This document shows positions 26,108 through 34,707 of a stretch of DNA of 64,000 bases, in pieces. The DNA lies in contig CAIXGR010000029.1 of the NCBI GenBank assembly GCA_903919075.1, positions 1 through 64,000 of the forward strand. Direction: 5' to 3'. A model generated the notes under the pieces. It saw nothing but the letters and a program-made list of their open reading frames with translations. It had not been told where the DNA came from and ran no database searches. The stretch is from an uncultured Bacteroidota bacterium (GTDB lineage: Bacteria; Bacteroidota; Bacteroidia; Chitinophagales; LD1). The position numbers and the translations under genes are program-made. Position 1 is the first letter of the stretch, and each line of letters starts with the position of its first letter.

Positions 26108-27499
26108 CTACTCTTTCACAAACCGCCCGACACCAATCCTTCCATTGCCGCTACTTATTTTTATCAAATACAATCCCGCCGGTAAAGCACCTACCGGTAT
26201 CCGGTATTCTGAATTGGATATAATGTATTTGGATATTTCGTCACCCATAAAGTCAAATACTTCTAATTCATCGCCTACTTCACTTACCTCTACGTTAACT
26301 TTTATATAATCAGCTGCAGGGTTGGGATAAATCTTAATTTGCCCTTTGACTGAGTTTACTTCATTAATTCCCGAAATAAGCGGACAGGCAGCCGCAGTGT
26401 TCGACGGGTAGATAGTTTCACCGCAAATACTAAAACAGGTAAGGGTGCCGAAATCGCAGCTCGGCGTGTTCCAGCCATTACCACAGATCCGGTCGACCCG
26501 ATGTACCGGAATAAGTCCACATAAACCGCCAATGCCTTCCACATACTGCAATCCAATGCTGTTGTTTGTCCACCTGGTTCTCCTTTGACCATTTACTAAA
26601 ATGGTATCTACAGAAGTGCAATTAATCCCATCTACTAATTGGTTAAAATTATAAGTAAAAAAAGGGGTGTTGGTTAAGGTATGATAAAAGAAAGTTTCCT
26701 TGTTTATGGTATCATTTCTAAAATAGCCAATCAGCGAATCGGGAGAATAAACATGAGTATAAAGATTATATGCGCTGTATAGCATTTCAACATAAGTATG
26801 ACCGTTGAATGGGATACTGTTGCCCGTTTTAATTTGCTCTTCAATAACGTCATTAATATCATTCCATACAGCGCAGGTTTCCGGTATTGGTGTAAAGTGA
26901 ATGTAAGATTGTCCATCAGCAAGGTAATAAGGCTTACCCCATTTTTCATTCCCTTTTGAATAGTATATTAAGGTGTCTGTCTCATATAAAAACATTTCAC
27001 TACCGTCACCGCCGAAGGTGTAGGTGTATGTTTCACCTAAACCTTCAGTGTAATATCCCCAATAACTATACACACCCAATCCACCACAAATCCAGTAGGC
27101 CTTATTTATAATTCTTTGATTATACCCGGTATTTATGCTAAATCCGCATAAATTATATTGGGGAGAAAATATTGCATAATTTCAAATACTGTCAATTATT
27201 AATGTAGTGCTGTCCTGAAAGGATAAGGTATCACCTTGTGAATTTTGATAAACTTGCTCAACAATAAACAAAGAATCTCCTGTTTGAGAAGATTGCACCT
27301 GCGTTACTACATAGCGTGAAAATGATATAGAATGGATGTAATTGATGGGATCATCCTGGCTTACTTGAATAGATTCAGTCTCATAATCAAAAGTATCTCC
27401 CACATTAAAGTTATAAACCTGCGCGCGGGTCAGGGTATCATTTGTAGCATTTGAAGTTAGACCGGTAAAAAGAATGATTAAAAGAAAGCTTTGTCGCAT
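26108..27499 (-). pseudogene. T9SS-secreted protein gene interrupted by one in-frame TGA
   Basis: Two frames on the minus strand, 27499-27182 (105 aa) and 27079-26108, lie in the same phase and are separated by a single TGA at 27184-27182. After the TGA the frame is open for 34 codons up to the TTG at 27079 and reads as normal protein (NYAIFSPQYNLCGFSIN). Together they encode about 463 residues: signal peptide (MRQSFLLIILFTGLTSNA), a secreted body of unknown fold, and a T9SS type A sorting domain (IKIYPNPAADYIKVNV, LEVFDFMGDEISKY, GLYLIKISSGNG, VGRFVKE). TGA is an ordinary stop elsewhere in the window, so recoding is unlikely. Either a nonsense mutation (one base from TGG or CGA) or an assembly error. 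Confidence 0.8.
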
Positions 27500-27764
27500 T
27501 GTCTAACTTTTGAATGTTACCTTTCCCCGAAGCTAAGTTCTTTATTTTATTAAATGTGATAATTAATTAATTTTACTTTTTTATGACAATTTCATTTATG
27601 CATGCCCTTAGCACATGAACAAGCGTTACAAAAATGAAACGTTTGCTGTGAGTTTTATTCTTTTTGTCTATCAAAAAATAAAATTTAACCAATTATTTTG
27701 AAATGTCGCCTACAAAATATATGTTCGTATTACTTAAATAATTATGAAATACAATAAAACATCT

Positions 27765-27803
27765 ATGCACCATCATTCAACACCGGTAAGGCCAGGTGAG
27801 TGA
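27765..27803 (+). CDS. hisL: his operon leader peptide
   Basis: Twelve codons, ATG CAC CAT CAT then Ser-Thr-Pro-Val-Arg-Pro-Gly-Glu and TGA: three His codons directly after the start. It lies 70 bp before hisG and ahead of a terminator hairpin. In classical attenuation, ribosome stalling on the His codons when charged tRNA-His is scarce prevents termination. Too short for standard gene finding. Confidence 0.8.
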   Translation: MHHHSTPVRPGE

Positions 27804-27861
27804 GTTGATTTGCATTGATGCGAAAATATAACGAAGCCCACCAGAATACGGTGGGTTTTTT
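27777..27861 (+). promoter_or_regulatory. Transcription attenuator of the his operon
   Basis: Four mutually exclusive arms can be drawn. Arm 1 is TCAAC/CACC (27777-27784), within and after the His codons. Arm 2 is GGTGAGT (27795-27801), followed by GTTGA (27804-27808). Arm 3 is GCCCACC (27836-27842). Arm 4 is GGTGGG (27850-27855), followed by a six-T run (27856-27861). Pairing 3:4 is a terminator ending 12 bp before the hisG ATG. Pairing 2:3 (six pairs with one mismatch) is an antiterminator. Pairing 1:2 would sequester arm 2 when translation runs to the stop at 27803. The logic matches proteobacterial his attenuators. Confidence 0.75.
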
Positions 27862-27872
27862 AATTTTAACCT

Positions 27873-28733
27873 ATGAATAAAAAACTGCGTATAGCTATTC
27901 AAAAATCGGGCAGGCTGAACGATGATTCGTTAAAGCTGATAAAAGACTGCGGCATTGCTATTGATAATGGCGACGACCGGCTTAAAGTTACGGCGCGTAA
28001 TTTTCCGCTGGAAGTTTTCTTTTTGCGAAATAGCGATATTCCGCAGTATGTGGAAGATGGCGTGGCAGATATTGCCATTATTGGCGAAAACCTGTTGATT
28101 GAAAAACCGCATGGGGTGGATGTGATTCAAAAACTGGGTTTCAGCAAATGCAAGGTTAGTTTGGCTATTCCTAAAAACGAAAGTTATGCAGGCTTGGAAT
28201 ATTTTAATGGTAAGAAAATTGCTACTTCGTACCCCAATACTTTACATCAATTTCTGAAAAAGAACAAACTGGAAGCAGAGATACACGAAATATCGGGCTC
28301 AGTAGAAATAGCGCCCAATATAGGTTTGGCCGATGCCATTTGCGATATTGTAAGCACCGGTTCAACCCTTTTTAAAAATGGATTGAAGGAAGTGGAGGTG
28401 ATGCAACAATCGGAAGCGGTATTGATTACCGGTAAAAAACTGGATGCGGAAACAAAAGCGCAGCTTGATAAATTATTGTTTCGCATTAACGCTGTTTTAT
28501 CAGCGCGAAACAATAAGTATATAGTATTGAATGCGCCAACAAATAGATTGAAAGAAATTATTGCATTGCTACCGGGTATGAAAAGCCCCACAGTATTGCC
28601 GCTTGCAGAAGAAGGATGGAGTTCGATACATTCAGTAATTAGTGAGAAGGAATTTTGGGATAAGATAGATGCCCTGAAAGCCGCGCAGGCGCAGGGGATA
28701 TTAGTAATGCCTATTGAGAAAATGGTCGTTTAA
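27873..28733 (+). CDS. hisG: ATP phosphoribosyltransferase (long form)
   Basis: First step of histidine synthesis: ATP plus PRPP to phosphoribosyl-ATP. 286 aa, the long HisG with a C-terminal regulatory (ACT-like) domain from about 210 where histidine normally feeds back. Visible: RIAIQKSGRLNDDS, DGVADIAIIGENLL, and the phosphoribosyl-binding loop DIVSTGSTL. First structural gene behind the attenuator. No hisZ is needed with this form. Confidence 0.97.
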   Translation: MNKKLRIAIQKSGRLNDDSLKLIKDCGIAIDNGDDRLKVTARNFPLEVFFLRNSDIPQYVEDGVADIAIIGENLLIEKPHGVDVIQKLGFSKCKVSLAIPKNESYAGLEYFNGKKIATSYPNTLHQFLKKNKLEAEIHEISGSVEIAPNIGLADAICDIVSTGSTLFKNGLKEVEVMQQSEAVLITGKKLDAETKAQLDKLLFRINAVLSARNNKYIVLNAPTNRLKEIIALLPGMKSPTVLPLAEEGWSSIHSVISEKEFWDKIDALKAAQAQGILVMPIEKMVV

Positions 28734-28753: not shown

Positions 28754-30034
28754 ATGCAAACTATAAAATACCCCAAACGCGAACAATTAAAAAATCTGCT
28801 TCAACGGCCAATGCATGATTTTGCAACGATTGAAATATCTGTTCAGCAAATAATTAATGAGGTAAAGAAAAACGGAGATGCGGCGTTAAAAAAATACACC
28901 CTGCAATTTGATAAAGTGAGTGTAAATAAATTGCGTGTAGATAATGATGAAATAAAGAAAGCGGAAAAATCGGTCGACAAAAAACCGAAAGCTGCTATTG
29001 AGACTGCTTATAAAAACATTTATAAATTTCATGCAGCTCAACAGCAAAGACCTGAAAAAATTGAAACCACCAAAGGCGTTATATGCTGGCGCGAAAGCAG
29101 GGCAATTGAGGAAGTGGGATTATATATACCTGGCGGTAGCGCTCCACTTTTTTCTACAGTATTAATGTTGGCTATACCGGCTAAAATTGGAGGCTGTAAA
29201 AGAGTGGTTTTATGCTCGCCTCCCGGCAAGGATGGTAATATTCACCCTGCTATATTATTTGCTGCGCAATTATGTGGCGTGCACGAAATTTATAAAGCCG
29301 GTGGGGCGCAGGCCATTGCGGCAATGGCGTATGGCACTAAAACAATAACACCGGTAAATAAAATATTCGCGCCGGGTAATCAATATGTAACGGTTGCCAA
29401 ACAATTGGTGCAAAGAAATGGAGTTGCTATTGATATGCCCGCAGGCCCTTCGGAGGTAATGGTTGTGGGAGATGAAACATGCGAAGCGGCTTTTGTAGCT
29501 GCTGATTTGTTATCGCAAGCTGAACACGGGCCGGATAGTCAGGTTATTTTTATTACTACCAAAGAAAAGATTGCTGGTAAGATTGTAGAAGAGGTTAAAA
29601 AGCAATTGGCGAAGTTGCCGCGCAAAGCAATTGCTGAAAAGGCACTTCAAAATTCAAAAATTATTATTGTTGAGAATAGAGAGCAGGCGGTTGAAATAAT
29701 TAATGAATATGCACCGGAGCATTTAATATTGGCAGTAAAGGATTCAAAATATTATATAAAGCATGTAAGCAATGCAGGCTCGGTTTTTATAGGCAATTAT
29801 ACTCCGGAGAGCGCCGGCGATTATGCCAGCGGAACCAACCACACGCTGCCAACTAATGGCTATGCGAAAGTATATAGCGGGGTATCTATAGATTCGTTTG
29901 TAAAGAAAATCACCTATCAGGAAATTTCGAAAACAGGGTTGAAAAAACTGCGGAACGTAATTGAGTTAATGGCGGAAGCAGAGCATTTGCATGCACATAA
30001 AAATGCAGTGAGTATCCGTTTGAAAAAAAGATAA
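28754..30034 (+). CDS. hisD: Histidinol dehydrogenase
   Basis: Zn- and NAD-dependent double oxidation of histidinol to histidine. 426 aa. Landmarks: YIPGGSAPLFSTVLM, AGGAQAIAAMAYGT, AGPSEVMVVGDE, LSQAEHGPDSQV (zinc ligands), EYAPEHLIL with the catalytic Glu-His, and SAGDYASGTNHTLPT. 20 bp after hisG. Confidence 0.97.
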   Translation: MQTIKYPKREQLKNLLQRPMHDFATIEISVQQIINEVKKNGDAALKKYTLQFDKVSVNKLRVDNDEIKKAEKSVDKKPKAAIETAYKNIYKFHAAQQQRPEKIETTKGVICWRESRAIEEVGLYIPGGSAPLFSTVLMLAIPAKIGGCKRVVLCSPPGKDGNIHPAILFAAQLCGVHEIYKAGGAQAIAAMAYGTKTITPVNKIFAPGNQYVTVAKQLVQRNGVAIDMPAGPSEVMVVGDETCEAAFVAADLLSQAEHGPDSQVIFITTKEKIAGKIVEEVKKQLAKLPRKAIAEKALQNSKIIIVENREQAVEIINEYAPEHLILAVKDSKYYIKHVSNAGSVFIGNYTPESAGDYASGTNHTLPTNGYAKVYSGVSIDSFVKKITYQEISKTGLKKLRNVIELMAEAEHLHAHKNAVSIRLKKR

Positions 30035-30044
30035 AATCATAATC

Positions 30045-31091
30045 ATGTTTGATGTTGAAAATATAGTGCGCGATAACATAAAAAGGCTGAAACCCTATTC
30101 CTCGGCACGCGATGAATTTCAGGGCGAGGCCAGTGTGTTTCTTGATGCTAATGAAAACGCGTTCGGTTCACCGTTGCCGGAATCGTACAACCGTTACCCA
30201 GACCCCTTGCAGAGAGAATTAAAAGCGAAAATAAGCGGTATTAAAGGTGTGCCTGCTAAAAATATTTTTTTGGGAAATGGAAGCGATGAAGCCATTGATA
30301 TTTTGTTCAGGATTTTCTGCGAGCCTAAACGGGATAATGTTATTATTTGTCCGCCCACGTACGGCATGTATGAGGTAAGTGCTAATATTAATGATGTAGC
30401 GATAAACAAAATTAATCTGCTGCCCAGTTTCGATTTAGACGTGCCCGGTATACTTGAAAATACGGATGCGCAGTCAAAGCTGCTTTTTATTTGTTCGCCT
30501 AATAACCCTACGGCTAACTCGGTACATCCGGATGATGTTGAGTTGTTGCTTCAAAAATTTGCAGGTATAGTGGTAATTGATGAGGCGTATATCAATTATT
30601 CTGCGCAGCCATCTTTTATAAAATTGCTTACTGAATATGCTAATCTTGTAGTGCTGCAAACCTTCTCGAAAGCTTGGGGCCTGGCAGGTTTGCGTTTGGG
30701 TATGGCATTCGCTTCCGAATCTATTATTAATTATATGAACCGGGTGAAACCCCCTTATAATGTGAACCAAAAAACGCAATTGCTGGCCATGGAAGCACTG
30801 GATAATATACAATGGGTGAATGAGCATATCAAACAAACTGTAATAGAAAGAAAGAAATTAGAAGAATCTTTGAAGGCGCTTACCATGGTGCAGAAAATTT
30901 ATCGGAGCGATGCCAATTTTATTTTAGTGCGGGTTGTTGACGCACGAGGAATTTACAATTATCTTATTTCGAAAGGGATTGTGGTACGCGACCGCTCGAA
31001 AGTAACTTTGTGCGAAGAATGTTTGCGTATTACTGTTGGAACAGAAAAAGAAAACCGAATTTTAATTGAAGCACTGAAACAATACAAATGA
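30045..31091 (+). CDS. hisC: Histidinol-phosphate aminotransferase
   Basis: PLP aminotransferase, imidazole-acetol phosphate to histidinol phosphate. 348 aa. Visible: LDANENAFGSPLP, YPDPLQRELK, FLGNGSDEAIDIL, CSPNNPTAN, the Schiff-base Lys209 in TFSKAWGLAGLRLG. Its stop overlaps the hisB start by 4 bp. Confidence 0.96.
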   Translation: MFDVENIVRDNIKRLKPYSSARDEFQGEASVFLDANENAFGSPLPESYNRYPDPLQRELKAKISGIKGVPAKNIFLGNGSDEAIDILFRIFCEPKRDNVIICPPTYGMYEVSANINDVAINKINLLPSFDLDVPGILENTDAQSKLLFICSPNNPTANSVHPDDVELLLQKFAGIVVIDEAYINYSAQPSFIKLLTEYANLVVLQTFSKAWGLAGLRLGMAFASESIINYMNRVKPPYNVNQKTQLLAMEALDNIQWVNEHIKQTVIERKKLEESLKALTMVQKIYRSDANFILVRVVDARGIYNYLISKGIVVRDRSKVTLCEECLRITVGTEKENRILIEALKQYK

Positions 31092-32053
31092 AAAAAGCAT
31101 TATTCATACAGCGCGAGGGGGCGTTATTGGCAAAGGTGAAAGGTAAAGAACAAATATTGTTTCTGCCAAACGTGTTTACCTTTTTGGGTAAAATTGCGAG
31201 AGAGCTTGATTTTGAATTGGTGCTGATTGTGAATGCGAATGAAAAGAAAAGCGAATTTGTAACGAAGCTGTTTGAAGGGGAAGGAATCAGATTTAAGACT
31301 TTTGTTGCGGGTAAAGCTGCGGGCTCGAATTACGATTTGAAGAATTCTTTTGTTATTGGTAATGATGCGGAAATAGCAACACAGTTAAAATGCCAATTTA
31401 TTGAATTGGGTGAAGGAAAAAGTAAAAAGCAGGCAAATGACTGGCAAGCGGCGTATCAATTTCTTAAAGGAGGAAGTAGAAAAGTGAAGCATCTGCGAAA
31501 AACAAAAGAAACGCAAATTGATATTGAACTGGATTTAGATGGCACCGGTAAGGCAAAAATTTCAACCGGGCTTCATTTTTTCGATCACATGTTGGAGCAG
31601 AGTGCCAGACATGGTGGTATTGATTTAAAAATTATTGCCAAAGGCGACCTGCATATTGATGAACATCATACAATTGAAGATACCGGTATTGCCCTAGGCG
31701 AAGCATTTTTGAAAGCGCTCGGCGATAAGCGGGGAATTGAGCGTTATGGTTTTTGCCTGCCTATGGATGATGCGCTGGCGCAGGTAGCCGTTGATTTTGG
31801 CGGAAGAAACTGGATTGAATGGAAAGTGAAATTCATTCGCGAAAAAATTGGTGATGTGCCTACTGAAATGTTTTTTCATTTCTTCAAGTCATTTACTGAT
31901 GCTGCTAGATGTAATTTGAATGTGAAGGCCGAGGGGCAAAACGAGCACCATAAAATAGAAGCGATTTTCAAAGCATTTGCAAAGGCCATTAAAATGTCGG
32001 TGAAGCGTGATTTTAATAATATGCAACTACCCAGTACCAAAGGAATATTATGA
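31088..32053 (+). CDS. hisB: HisB: imidazoleglycerol-phosphate dehydratase with a degenerate N-terminal phosphatase domain
   Basis: 321 aa. Residues 137-321 are an intact IGP dehydratase with its manganese-binding histidines: HFFDHMLEQSARHG, DEHHTIEDTGIALGE, the MDDALA loop, EMFFHFFKSF and EGQNEHHKIEAIFKAFA. Residues 1-130 occupy the place of the HAD histidinol-phosphatase domain of bifunctional HisB, but each catalytic motif is gone. The nucleophile motif FIDRDG reads FIQREG (Gln8, Glu10). The motif II Thr is Val48 (LIVNANE). The GDxxxD motif reads GNDAEIA (91-97). The zinc-binding Cys/His cluster is absent. So only the dehydratase activity is expected. Overlaps hisC and hisH by 4 bp each. 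Confidence 0.92.
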   Translation: MKKALFIQREGALLAKVKGKEQILFLPNVFTFLGKIARELDFELVLIVNANEKKSEFVTKLFEGEGIRFKTFVAGKAAGSNYDLKNSFVIGNDAEIATQLKCQFIELGEGKSKKQANDWQAAYQFLKGGSRKVKHLRKTKETQIDIELDLDGTGKAKISTGLHFFDHMLEQSARHGGIDLKIIAKGDLHIDEHHTIEDTGIALGEAFLKALGDKRGIERYGFCLPMDDALAQVAVDFGGRNWIEWKVKFIREKIGDVPTEMFFHFFKSFTDAARCNLNVKAEGQNEHHKIEAIFKAFAKAIKMSVKRDFNNMQLPSTKGIL

Positions 32054-32634
32054 AGCTGGTGATTATAGATTATGGTGCGGGTAATACGCAGTCGGTGAAA
32101 TTTGCTTTTCAGCGGTTGGGTATGGCACCGGTATTGAGTTCTGATAAGGATGAAATTCTTTCGGCTGATAAAATTATTTTTCTCGGTGTGGGCCATGCTA
32201 AAGCGGCTATGGAGGTGTTGAAAGAAAAGAAATTGGATGTGCTTATTCCCCAATTGAAGCAACCTGTGTTGGGTATTTGTTTGGGTATGCAATTGTTGTG
32301 CAAGCATAGTGAAGAGGGCGATACTGAATGCCTGAATGTTTTTGATGCGGATGTAAAATTATTTGAGCCGAAGCTAAAGGTGCCGCATATAGGTTGGAAT
32401 GACACAATGGGCCTCCATTCAAAAAATGGCAGCGTGTGGAATTTTAATAAGGATTACTTTTATTTTGTTCACAGCTATTATGTGCCGGTTAACGATTTTA
32501 CTTCGGCAATTTGTAATTACGTAACCGATTTTTCTGCAGCTATTCAAAAAAATAATTTTTATGCCGTTCAGTTTCACCCTGAAAAAAGTGGTGCGGCGGG
32601 CGAGCAATTACTAAAGCAATTTTTAAGTATCTGA
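32050..32634 (+). CDS. hisH: Imidazole glycerol phosphate synthase glutaminase subunit
   Basis: Class I glutamine amidotransferase that feeds ammonia to HisF. 194 aa. Catalytic Cys77 in LGICLGMQLL and His176/Glu178 in VQFHPEKSG. The oxyanion-strand motif usually read PGVG is LGVGHAKAAM here, a Pro-to-Leu change at a position usually kept as Pro. Overlaps hisA by one base. Confidence 0.95.
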   Translation: MKLVIIDYGAGNTQSVKFAFQRLGMAPVLSSDKDEILSADKIIFLGVGHAKAAMEVLKEKKLDVLIPQLKQPVLGICLGMQLLCKHSEEGDTECLNVFDADVKLFEPKLKVPHIGWNDTMGLHSKNGSVWNFNKDYFYFVHSYYVPVNDFTSAICNYVTDFSAAIQKNNFYAVQFHPEKSGAAGEQLLKQFLSI

Positions 32635-33359
32635 TGTATATTATTCCTGCCATAGATATTATAGATGGGAAGTGTGTAAGGCTTACCCAGGGCGATTATA
32701 GCCAAATGAAAGTATACAACGATGACCCGGTTGAAGTGGCCATACAATTTGAAGGTGTGGGTATAAAGCACCTGCATTTAGTTGATTTGGATGGTGCGAA
32801 AGCCAATCATATTGTGAATTATAATGTGCTGGAAAATATTTGTGCGAATACGGCTTTGCACATTGATTTTGGTGGGGGGATTAAAAGCGATGAAGATATC
32901 AGGTTAGCTTTTGAATGTGGTGCGAAGCAAATAACTGCCGGAAGTATTGCAGTAAAAAGCCCGGAAACTGTAATGAGATGGCTGCAAAAATACGGGTCAG
33001 AGAAAATTATTTTGGGTGCCGATGTGAAGGATAAAATTATTGCCGTAAACGGATGGAAAGAAGATACAGGTATTAATCTTTACGAGTTTTTGGAAGATTA
33101 TACCAGAAAGGGGATTCAATATGTTATTTGCACTGATATTTCGAAAGACGGGTTGTTGCAGGGGGCTGCTGTTTCATTGTATCAGGAAATCAGTAACCGG
33201 TTTCCGGAATTGAAACTGATTGCCAGCGGTGGAGTGAGCGATGCTGATGATTTGAAACAGCTGAGTGAAATAGGTTTGTACGGCGCTATTGTTGGCAAAG
33301 CTATTTACGAGGGCAAAATTAGTTTGGAACAATTGGCAAAATTAAACGCTACCCTGTAA
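32634..33359 (+). CDS. hisA: ProFAR isomerase
   Basis: (beta/alpha)8-barrel isomerase, ProFAR to PRFAR. 241 aa. Catalytic Asp8 in [14 protein letters not shown] and the second Asp in [12 protein letters not shown]; phosphate loops in DFGGGIKS and [11 protein letters not shown]. Both ends overlap the neighbours by a single base (TGATG and TAATG), so translation is coupled. Confidence 0.96.
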
Positions 33360-34114
33360 TGTTAACCAAACGTATTATACCTTGTTTAGATATTAAAGAC
33401 GGCCAGACCGTAAAGGGGGTAAATTTTGAAAACCTGCGCTATGCGGGTGACCCGGTAGAGCTGGCAATGATTTATGCCAATGAGGGCGCCGATGAATTGG
33501 TGTTTCTGGATATAACTGCTACGCACGAGAAAAGAAAAACGCTTGCTGCTTTGGTTGAAAAAATTGCAGCCAAAATAAATATTCCGTTTAGCGTGGGTGG
33601 GGGTATAAGCTCGGTAGAAGATGTGAATATATTGCTGAAAAGCGGGGCCGATAAGGTTTCGGTAAACTCCGCAGCGGTTAAAAACCCACAATTGATAAAT
33701 GATATTGCAGATAAATTTGGCAGCCAGTGTTTGATATTGGCTATTGATGCGAAGGAAACAACCGGTAACTGGAAAGTTTATTTGAATGGTGGGCGGTTGG
33801 AGACTGAGCTTGAGCTATTTACCTGGGCTAAAGAAGGAGAGCAGCGCGGGGCCGGTGAAATTCTTTTTACCTCTATGAATCATGATGGAACTAAGAATGG
33901 ATTTGCTAATGTTGCTTTGCGGCAGCTTTCGGAAACTGTGAATATTCCCATTATAGCATCGGGCGGTGCGGGAAATATGGAACATTTTTATGAAACGTTT
34001 ACAGCAGGTAAATGCGATGCCGCGCTTGCTGCCAGTATTTTCCATTTTGGTGAAATAAAAATTAAGGCGTTGAAAGAATATTTATATCAAAAACAAATAC
34101 CGGTACGATTATGA
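33359..34114 (+). CDS. hisF: Imidazole glycerol phosphate synthase cyclase subunit
   Basis: Barrel partner of HisH, producing IGP and AICAR. 251 aa. Catalytic Asp11 in [15 protein letters not shown] and the second Asp in [16 protein letters not shown] and [11 protein letters not shown] phosphate loops. Overlaps hisI by 4 bp. Confidence 0.97.
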
Positions 34115-34707
34115 AAGTAGATTTTGCGAAAGGAAACGGGCTGGTGCCTGCTGTAATACAAGATGCTGTAACCGGTAAAGCGCTGATGCTGGGTTATATG
34201 AACGAAGAAGCCCTGAAAAAAACACAGGCCGAAAAGCGGGTAACTTTTTTTAGCCGCAGCAAAAACCGGTTATGGACGAAAGGAGAGGAGAGCGGCAATT
34301 TTTTAGAAGTAATAGATGTGCTTATTGATTGCGATAACGATACACTTTTAATTAAGGCTAATCCTACGGGGCCTGTTTGCCACACCGGTGCCGATACCTG
34401 TTGGAGTGAGAAGAATGAAAAAACGTCTCTTTATTTTTTACAAGAGTTAGAGCAGGTAATTGATTCAAGAAAAAATGAGCCAAGCGCGGATTCTTATACT
34501 TCTAAGTTATTTGCGAAGGGCATTAATAAAGTGGCACAGAAGGTAGGCGAGGAGGCTGTTGAGTTGGTTATTGAGGCTAATGATAATAACAGAGACTTGT
34601 TTTTAAACGAAGCCGCTGACCTGCTGTATCATTATATGATTTTATTGAAAGCGAAAGAGGCTTCTTTAGATGATGTAATATCTATTTTAAAGAAGCGAAA
34701 TAAGTAA
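34111..34707 (+). CDS. hisI: Bifunctional phosphoribosyl-AMP cyclohydrolase / phosphoribosyl-ATP pyrophosphatase
   Basis: Steps two and three of the pathway on one chain (HisIE), 198 aa. HisI part 1-105: [34 protein letters not shown], the metal-binding DCDNDTLL and [12 protein letters not shown]. HisE part 110-198: [15 protein letters not shown] and [14 protein letters not shown]. Last gene of the operon, followed by a strong terminator. Confidence 0.96.

Follow-up and report, generated by a model that had tools for sequence, protein, structure and literature searches.

A putative ribosome-mediated histidine attenuator preceding the his operon in Bacteroidota

The his operon of an uncultured Bacteroidota bacterium is very likely controlled by a ribosome-mediated, histidine-responsive transcription attenuator, as judged from the nucleotide sequence and its relatives. 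The feature lies in a stretch of 64,000 nucleotides, the whole of which is called the window here. It fits a ribosome-mediated his attenuator in that a leader with tandem His codons lies upstream and an intrinsic terminator stands between this leader and hisG. Sequence and comparison support the leader and its specificity for His, the terminator, the covarying pairings of arm 2 with arm 3 (2:3) and of arm 3 with arm 4 (3:4), and the operon. Leader-peptide attenuation of his operons is classical, and the enteric his leader carries seven His codons. The leader of the window has only three, which counts against the proposal. The antiterminator 2:3, which would exclude the terminator, is supported by covariation throughout the family, whereas in the window alone it is not significant as a plain duplex. 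The claim for the window copy thus rests on homology with the family, by which the copy is predicted to be an attenuator.

Leader, promoter and his operon of the window

The short ORF at 27765-27803 (ATG CAC CAT CAT TCA ACA CCG GTA AGG CCA GGT GAG TGA) comprises 12 sense codons with His at codons 2-4. The first-pass annotation had described this Met-His-His-His ORF, a terminator and a T run, and all three are present at the positions given for them (27765-27803 and 27836-27861). Its choice of start codon is less secure, since a second in-frame ATG at 27744 yields a longer leader of 19 codons and is probably the likelier start. This ATG is favoured because it follows the predicted promoter by 16 nt, and the leader ATG of relatives follows the equivalent box by 16-17 nt. 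Close relatives share the same promoter layout, TTTG-N19-TATCTTCG, at that distance on the 5' side of the leader ATG. With a promoter consensus taken from general knowledge, the mean score over 100 leaders was 9.3 of 10, compared with 6.9 in shuffles. The leader stop codon lies 69 nt from hisG, and 11 nt separate the T run from the hisG ATG (27873). Table 1 summarizes the features of the locus.

Table 1. Predicted features of the his leader region and operon in the window
Feature	Position	Strand	Basis
Bacteroidota-type promoter (predicted): TTTG 27697-27700, 19 nt, TATGTTCG 27720-27727	27697..27727	+	score 10/10
His leader peptide ORF, probable full length MKYNKTSMHHHSTPVRPGE, TGA 27801-27803	27744..27803	+	in frame; position homologous to relatives' leaders, e.g. 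MIRITHHHHSIIAQRGN
Arm 1:arm 2 hairpin (protector/pause), takes in the His codons and leader stop	27760..27820	+	minimum-energy fold
Putative sensing codons CAC CAT CAT (three consecutive His)	27768..27776	+	sequence; HHH in 95/110 hisG upstream regions
Arm 2 GGTGAGTGAGTTG, predicted antiterminator 5' side, overlaps the leader stop codon	27795..27807	+	pairs with 27829-27842, z -2.62
Arm 3 region, common to antiterminator and (27836-27842) terminator	27829..27842	+	folding
Intrinsic terminator (3:4): GCCCACC 27836-27842, loop AGAATAC, GGTGGG 27850-27855, T6 27856-27861	27836..27861	+	sequence, fold; -14.5 kcal/mol for hairpin from 27833
hisG, first controlled gene	27873..28733	+	TIGR00070 and TIGR03455 above cut-off
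hisD, hisC, hisB, hisH, hisA, hisF, hisIE (remaining operon genes)	28754..34707	+	ORF list and NCBIfam

Downstream of the leader the his operon is complete, with the order hisGDCBHAFIE according to NCBIfam profiles. The identification of the first gene as hisG of a his operon was borne out by its two profile matches; hisD, hisC, hisH, hisA, hisF and hisIE likewise score above the NCBIfam cut-offs, and a HisB-type imidazoleglycerol-phosphate dehydratase is encoded between hisC and hisH. The ORFs on the 5' side of the leader (27182-27499 and 26108-27079) are both on the minus strand, which makes this a divergent intergenic region; the plus-strand terminator therefore belongs to the his transcript and not to the end of an upstream gene. 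Judged by eye, ORF 26108-27079 encodes a C-terminal end similar to a type IX secretion sorting domain. A search of the source genome (G000) for ilvD gave no match, and its match to PF04715 (anthranilate-synthase-type) was weak (26 bits). The organism may have retained histidine synthesis and perhaps lacks branched-chain and tryptophan synthesis.

Survey of hisG upstream regions

Searches for hisG in the family, the order and the genome collection gave 110 distinct upstream regions, and a phylum sample was added later. Taking as a leader any ORF that begins with ATG and contains three or more His codons, leaders were present in 103/110 regions; shuffles gave 6.4 on average and never more than 12, and the reverse strand had His-rich ORFs in 9 regions. 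The HHH motif occurred in 95/110 regions against 0.2 in shuffles. In an enrichment test over the same regions, His was the only amino acid enriched. An automatic search, in which hairpin counts had no shuffled control, found a hairpin and T run on the 3' side of all 102 leaders listed (102/102); these terminators have a median of -18 kcal/mol and usually lie about 20-47 nt past the leader stop. The comparison of hisG upstream regions suggested by the first-pass annotation has thus yielded a recurrent His mini-ORF and covarying arms, with exceptions among congeners.

The exceptions are L003 and L006, two congeners with readable hisG upstream regions and no His leader. Their hisG is 85-86% identical to that of the window. 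By eye, the leader and any obvious terminator are missing from L003; in L006 the hairpin is still present, and the His ORF seems degraded. No hisG match was obtained in 7/17 congeners (G001-G017), all seven being at least 93% complete. The his operon and the attenuator are patchy within the genus of the window. Two successive His-rich leader ORFs precede a single hisG at L113 (at -346 and -181 relative to hisG) and L193 (at -351 and -196), and these pairs are possibly tandem attenuators.

Alternative pairings, modelled ribosome positions and rival explanations

Folding of 27740-27875 gave z -4.45, with 0/200 shuffles as good. The four alternately pairing arms of the first-pass annotation are largely retained, as 1:2, 2:3 and 3:4 all hold with compensatory changes; the exception is arm 1, where the minimum-energy fold has the larger hairpin 27760-27820 instead of a separate CACC arm. 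The antiterminator stretch of the window folds moderately well (z -2.62). In the window alone, the plain 2:3 duplex did not exceed shuffles (z +0.08), nor was the capture of arm 3 significant against a shuffled spacer (p 0.25).

Support for the pairing comes from the family. Arm 3 was paired with the segment that extends from the His run as far as the terminator, using either its own partner or a partner swapped between species; own duplexes averaged -13.5 kcal/mol and swapped ones -11.0 (p 2.8e-15, a value that overstates independence because the sequences are related by descent). Individually, 75% of the 2:3 duplexes reached p<0.05 against dinucleotide shuffles. Arm 2 overlaps or adjoins the codon that ends the leader (median -12 to 0); many Chitinophagales have this stop codon built into the arm (GG-TAG-GC). 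In the group with CTCARRYG, arms 2, 3 and 4 change together, as CTCAGGCG/CGTCTGAG/GCAGAC, CTCAGGTG/CATCTGAG/GTAGGC and CTCAAACG/CGTTTGAG/GCAAAC. Since sequences of different families align poorly except in the arms, these swapped-partner and group counts were used in place of a covariance model. The predicted 2:3 and 3:4 pairings are conserved and covarying.

Ribosome positions were modelled by position-dependent folding, in which pairing was restricted to ribosome-free RNA that would be transcribed ahead of arm 4. In the window, arm 3 was sequestered at 0.80 with the ribosome on the His codons, 0.23 with the ribosome at the stop codon and 0.06 without a ribosome. The corresponding values over 101 sequences were 0.84, 0.37 and 0.58, and sequestration was higher on His than at the stop in 98/101. 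The model is consistent with the earlier suggestion that stalling on His codons would free arm 2 for arm 3. Part of the drop at the stop codon comes from the shorter RNA that remains available for pairing, and a control with shuffled spacers was therefore run; the stalled value fell from 0.84 to 0.60 on average (p 3e-18). At equilibrium the terminator always prevails (above 0.9 on average), so that the switch must be kinetic, as in classic attenuators. Such a kinetic switch would also require transcription-translation coupling in the organism.

From these data we infer promoter use, leader translation, ribosome-polymerase coupling and a response to histidine. The promoter would give rise to a short leader mRNA, from which a peptide of 19 (possibly 12) codons with three tandem His codons would be translated. 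When charged tRNA-His is scarce, the ribosome would stall on the sensing codons and open the 1:2 hairpin; arm 2, freed at the leader stop, could then capture arm 3 before arm 4 is made, and RNA polymerase would enter hisGDCBHAFIE. When histidine is plentiful, a ribosome at the stop codon would cover arm 2, so that 3:4 pairs and transcription stops at the T run. The same outcome is expected if the leader is untranslated, in which case the 1:2 hairpin would hold arm 2.

The hairpin might instead be an ordinary constitutive terminator or processing site beside an incidental His ORF. Its stability on its own and its prevalence at equilibrium are in keeping with this. Nevertheless, the adjoining upstream genes run the opposite way and leave nothing on the plus strand to terminate, and an incidental ORF is very unlikely given a His-specific leader in 103/110 hisG upstream regions, which makes this explanation highly improbable. 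Control by a metabolite riboswitch or a T-box can be dismissed with still greater assurance. The leader is indeed structured and ends in a terminator, but no Rfam family reached the gathering score in the window or over the leaders of 14 related loci, the T-box covariance model had no match in the window, and strong conservation is limited to the His codon run and the alternative arms.

Slightly more room, though very little, is left for a leader that acts without ribosome-dependent switching of a terminator, for example through translation re-initiation, Rho or a histidine-sensing protein. Several families have a His-rich leader without a recognisable terminator before hisG, and the leader must have another role in those families. 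Re-initiation has also been proposed for Bacteroidetes leaders 11-14 nt before the gene (Korolev 2016, PMC4833913), which counts for this alternative. In the window, however, the leader stop is beyond the re-initiation peak and a strong intrinsic terminator separates leader and gene; the covariation of arms 2 and 3 also speaks against a leader that does not switch. Ribosome-mediated attenuation is accordingly the preferred reading for the window.

Range in Bacteroidota and relation to known attenuators

Among 60 further regions, drawn from additional families at the level of order, class and phylum and in part sampled before, His leaders were found in 38. Two phylum-level families (f36 and f54) have His leaders with matching terminators. 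With a distant HisG type (26-33% identity; L242-L261, from phylum-level relatives), 19/20 genomes have no His leader, and the single leader among these 20 lies 310 nt upstream, in an orientation that was checked; the trait therefore follows one HisG type. In the families f23, f19 and f43, most members have His-rich leaders, mostly without a terminator (L141-L147 in f23; L211-L215 and L236-L239 in f19; L169-L173 and L221-L235 in f43), and some f19 members have no leader. The spacers of f43 resemble Rho-loading sites in being rich in C (0.24) and poor in G (0.09). Small hairpins in f23 and in several members of f19 are formed by the His codons together with the bases surrounding the leader stop. 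Both features are to be taken as leads only. One tentative account, which we consider somewhat less than even in probability, is that control by a His leader peptide was ancestral to the main Bacteroidota lineage with this HisG type, and that several families later lost the terminator and kept the leader, the terminator being replaced by Rho-dependent termination (f43) or by the His-codon hairpin (f23 and f19).

The Rfam His leader model (RF00514), which the first-pass annotation had put forward as a further check, did not match the window even at E 10. Sub-threshold matches to sroH (23.9, gathering 80) and to Phe_leader (20.8, gathering 55; the best leader-type match) were taken as chance or as generic attenuator shape. 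Like the Enterobacteria his leader represented by RF00514, the Bacteroidota leaders combine a run of His codons in a short ORF, alternative pairing, an intrinsic terminator and hisG as first gene. Unlike it, they are arranged in three stages (1:2, 2:3, 3:4) in which arm 2 falls at the leader stop, follow a Bacteroidota promoter and mostly carry three to six His codons rather than the seven generally known for enteric leaders.

Vitreschak and co-workers reportedly listed some attenuators in Bacteroidetes/Chlorobi in 2004. A 2013 Rfam-based survey suggested that amino-acid attenuators may have a gamma-proteobacterial origin and have rarely been transferred (PMC3766115); work from 2022 assigns his attenuators to Proteobacteria and to a small number of Firmicutes lineages (PMC9413887). 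Those of the Bacillus cereus group, Peptostreptococcaceae and Erysipelotrichales are missed by RF00514 (PMC9413887). The Bacteroidota leaders resemble these Firmicutes attenuators in having runs of three to five His codons, a terminator and an antiterminator, and in being invisible to RF00514, whereas the Firmicutes systems are confined to a few lineages and the putative attenuator is the rule in most sampled Bacteroidia. Amino-acid operons of Flavobacterium psychrophilum showed 'strong clues' for control by leader-peptide attenuation in the study of Guerin et al. (2021, PMC9723704), which also described a conserved structured 5' element before hisG that is common to Flavobacteriaceae and has no Rfam match. 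This is probably the same element; the description consulted sets out neither leader nor arms, and no range wider than the family.

On whether such a system had been described for the lineage, which the first-pass annotation left open, the flavobacterial clues show that it is not wholly undescribed. A his attenuator extending across the phylum Bacteroidota was not found in a literature search outside which Vitreschak 2004 and Lopatovskaya 2010 lay. The range is broader than the accessible literature states. What appears to be new is this breadth, the absence from Rfam and the terminator-less His-rich leaders of several families. Most sampled Bacteroidia have, ahead of hisG, a His-specific leader with a putatively switchable terminator that is invisible to Rfam. 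If functional, ribosome-polymerase coupling of the grade needed for attenuation must exist in Bacteroidota, and the his leader would be a ready reporter for testing it.
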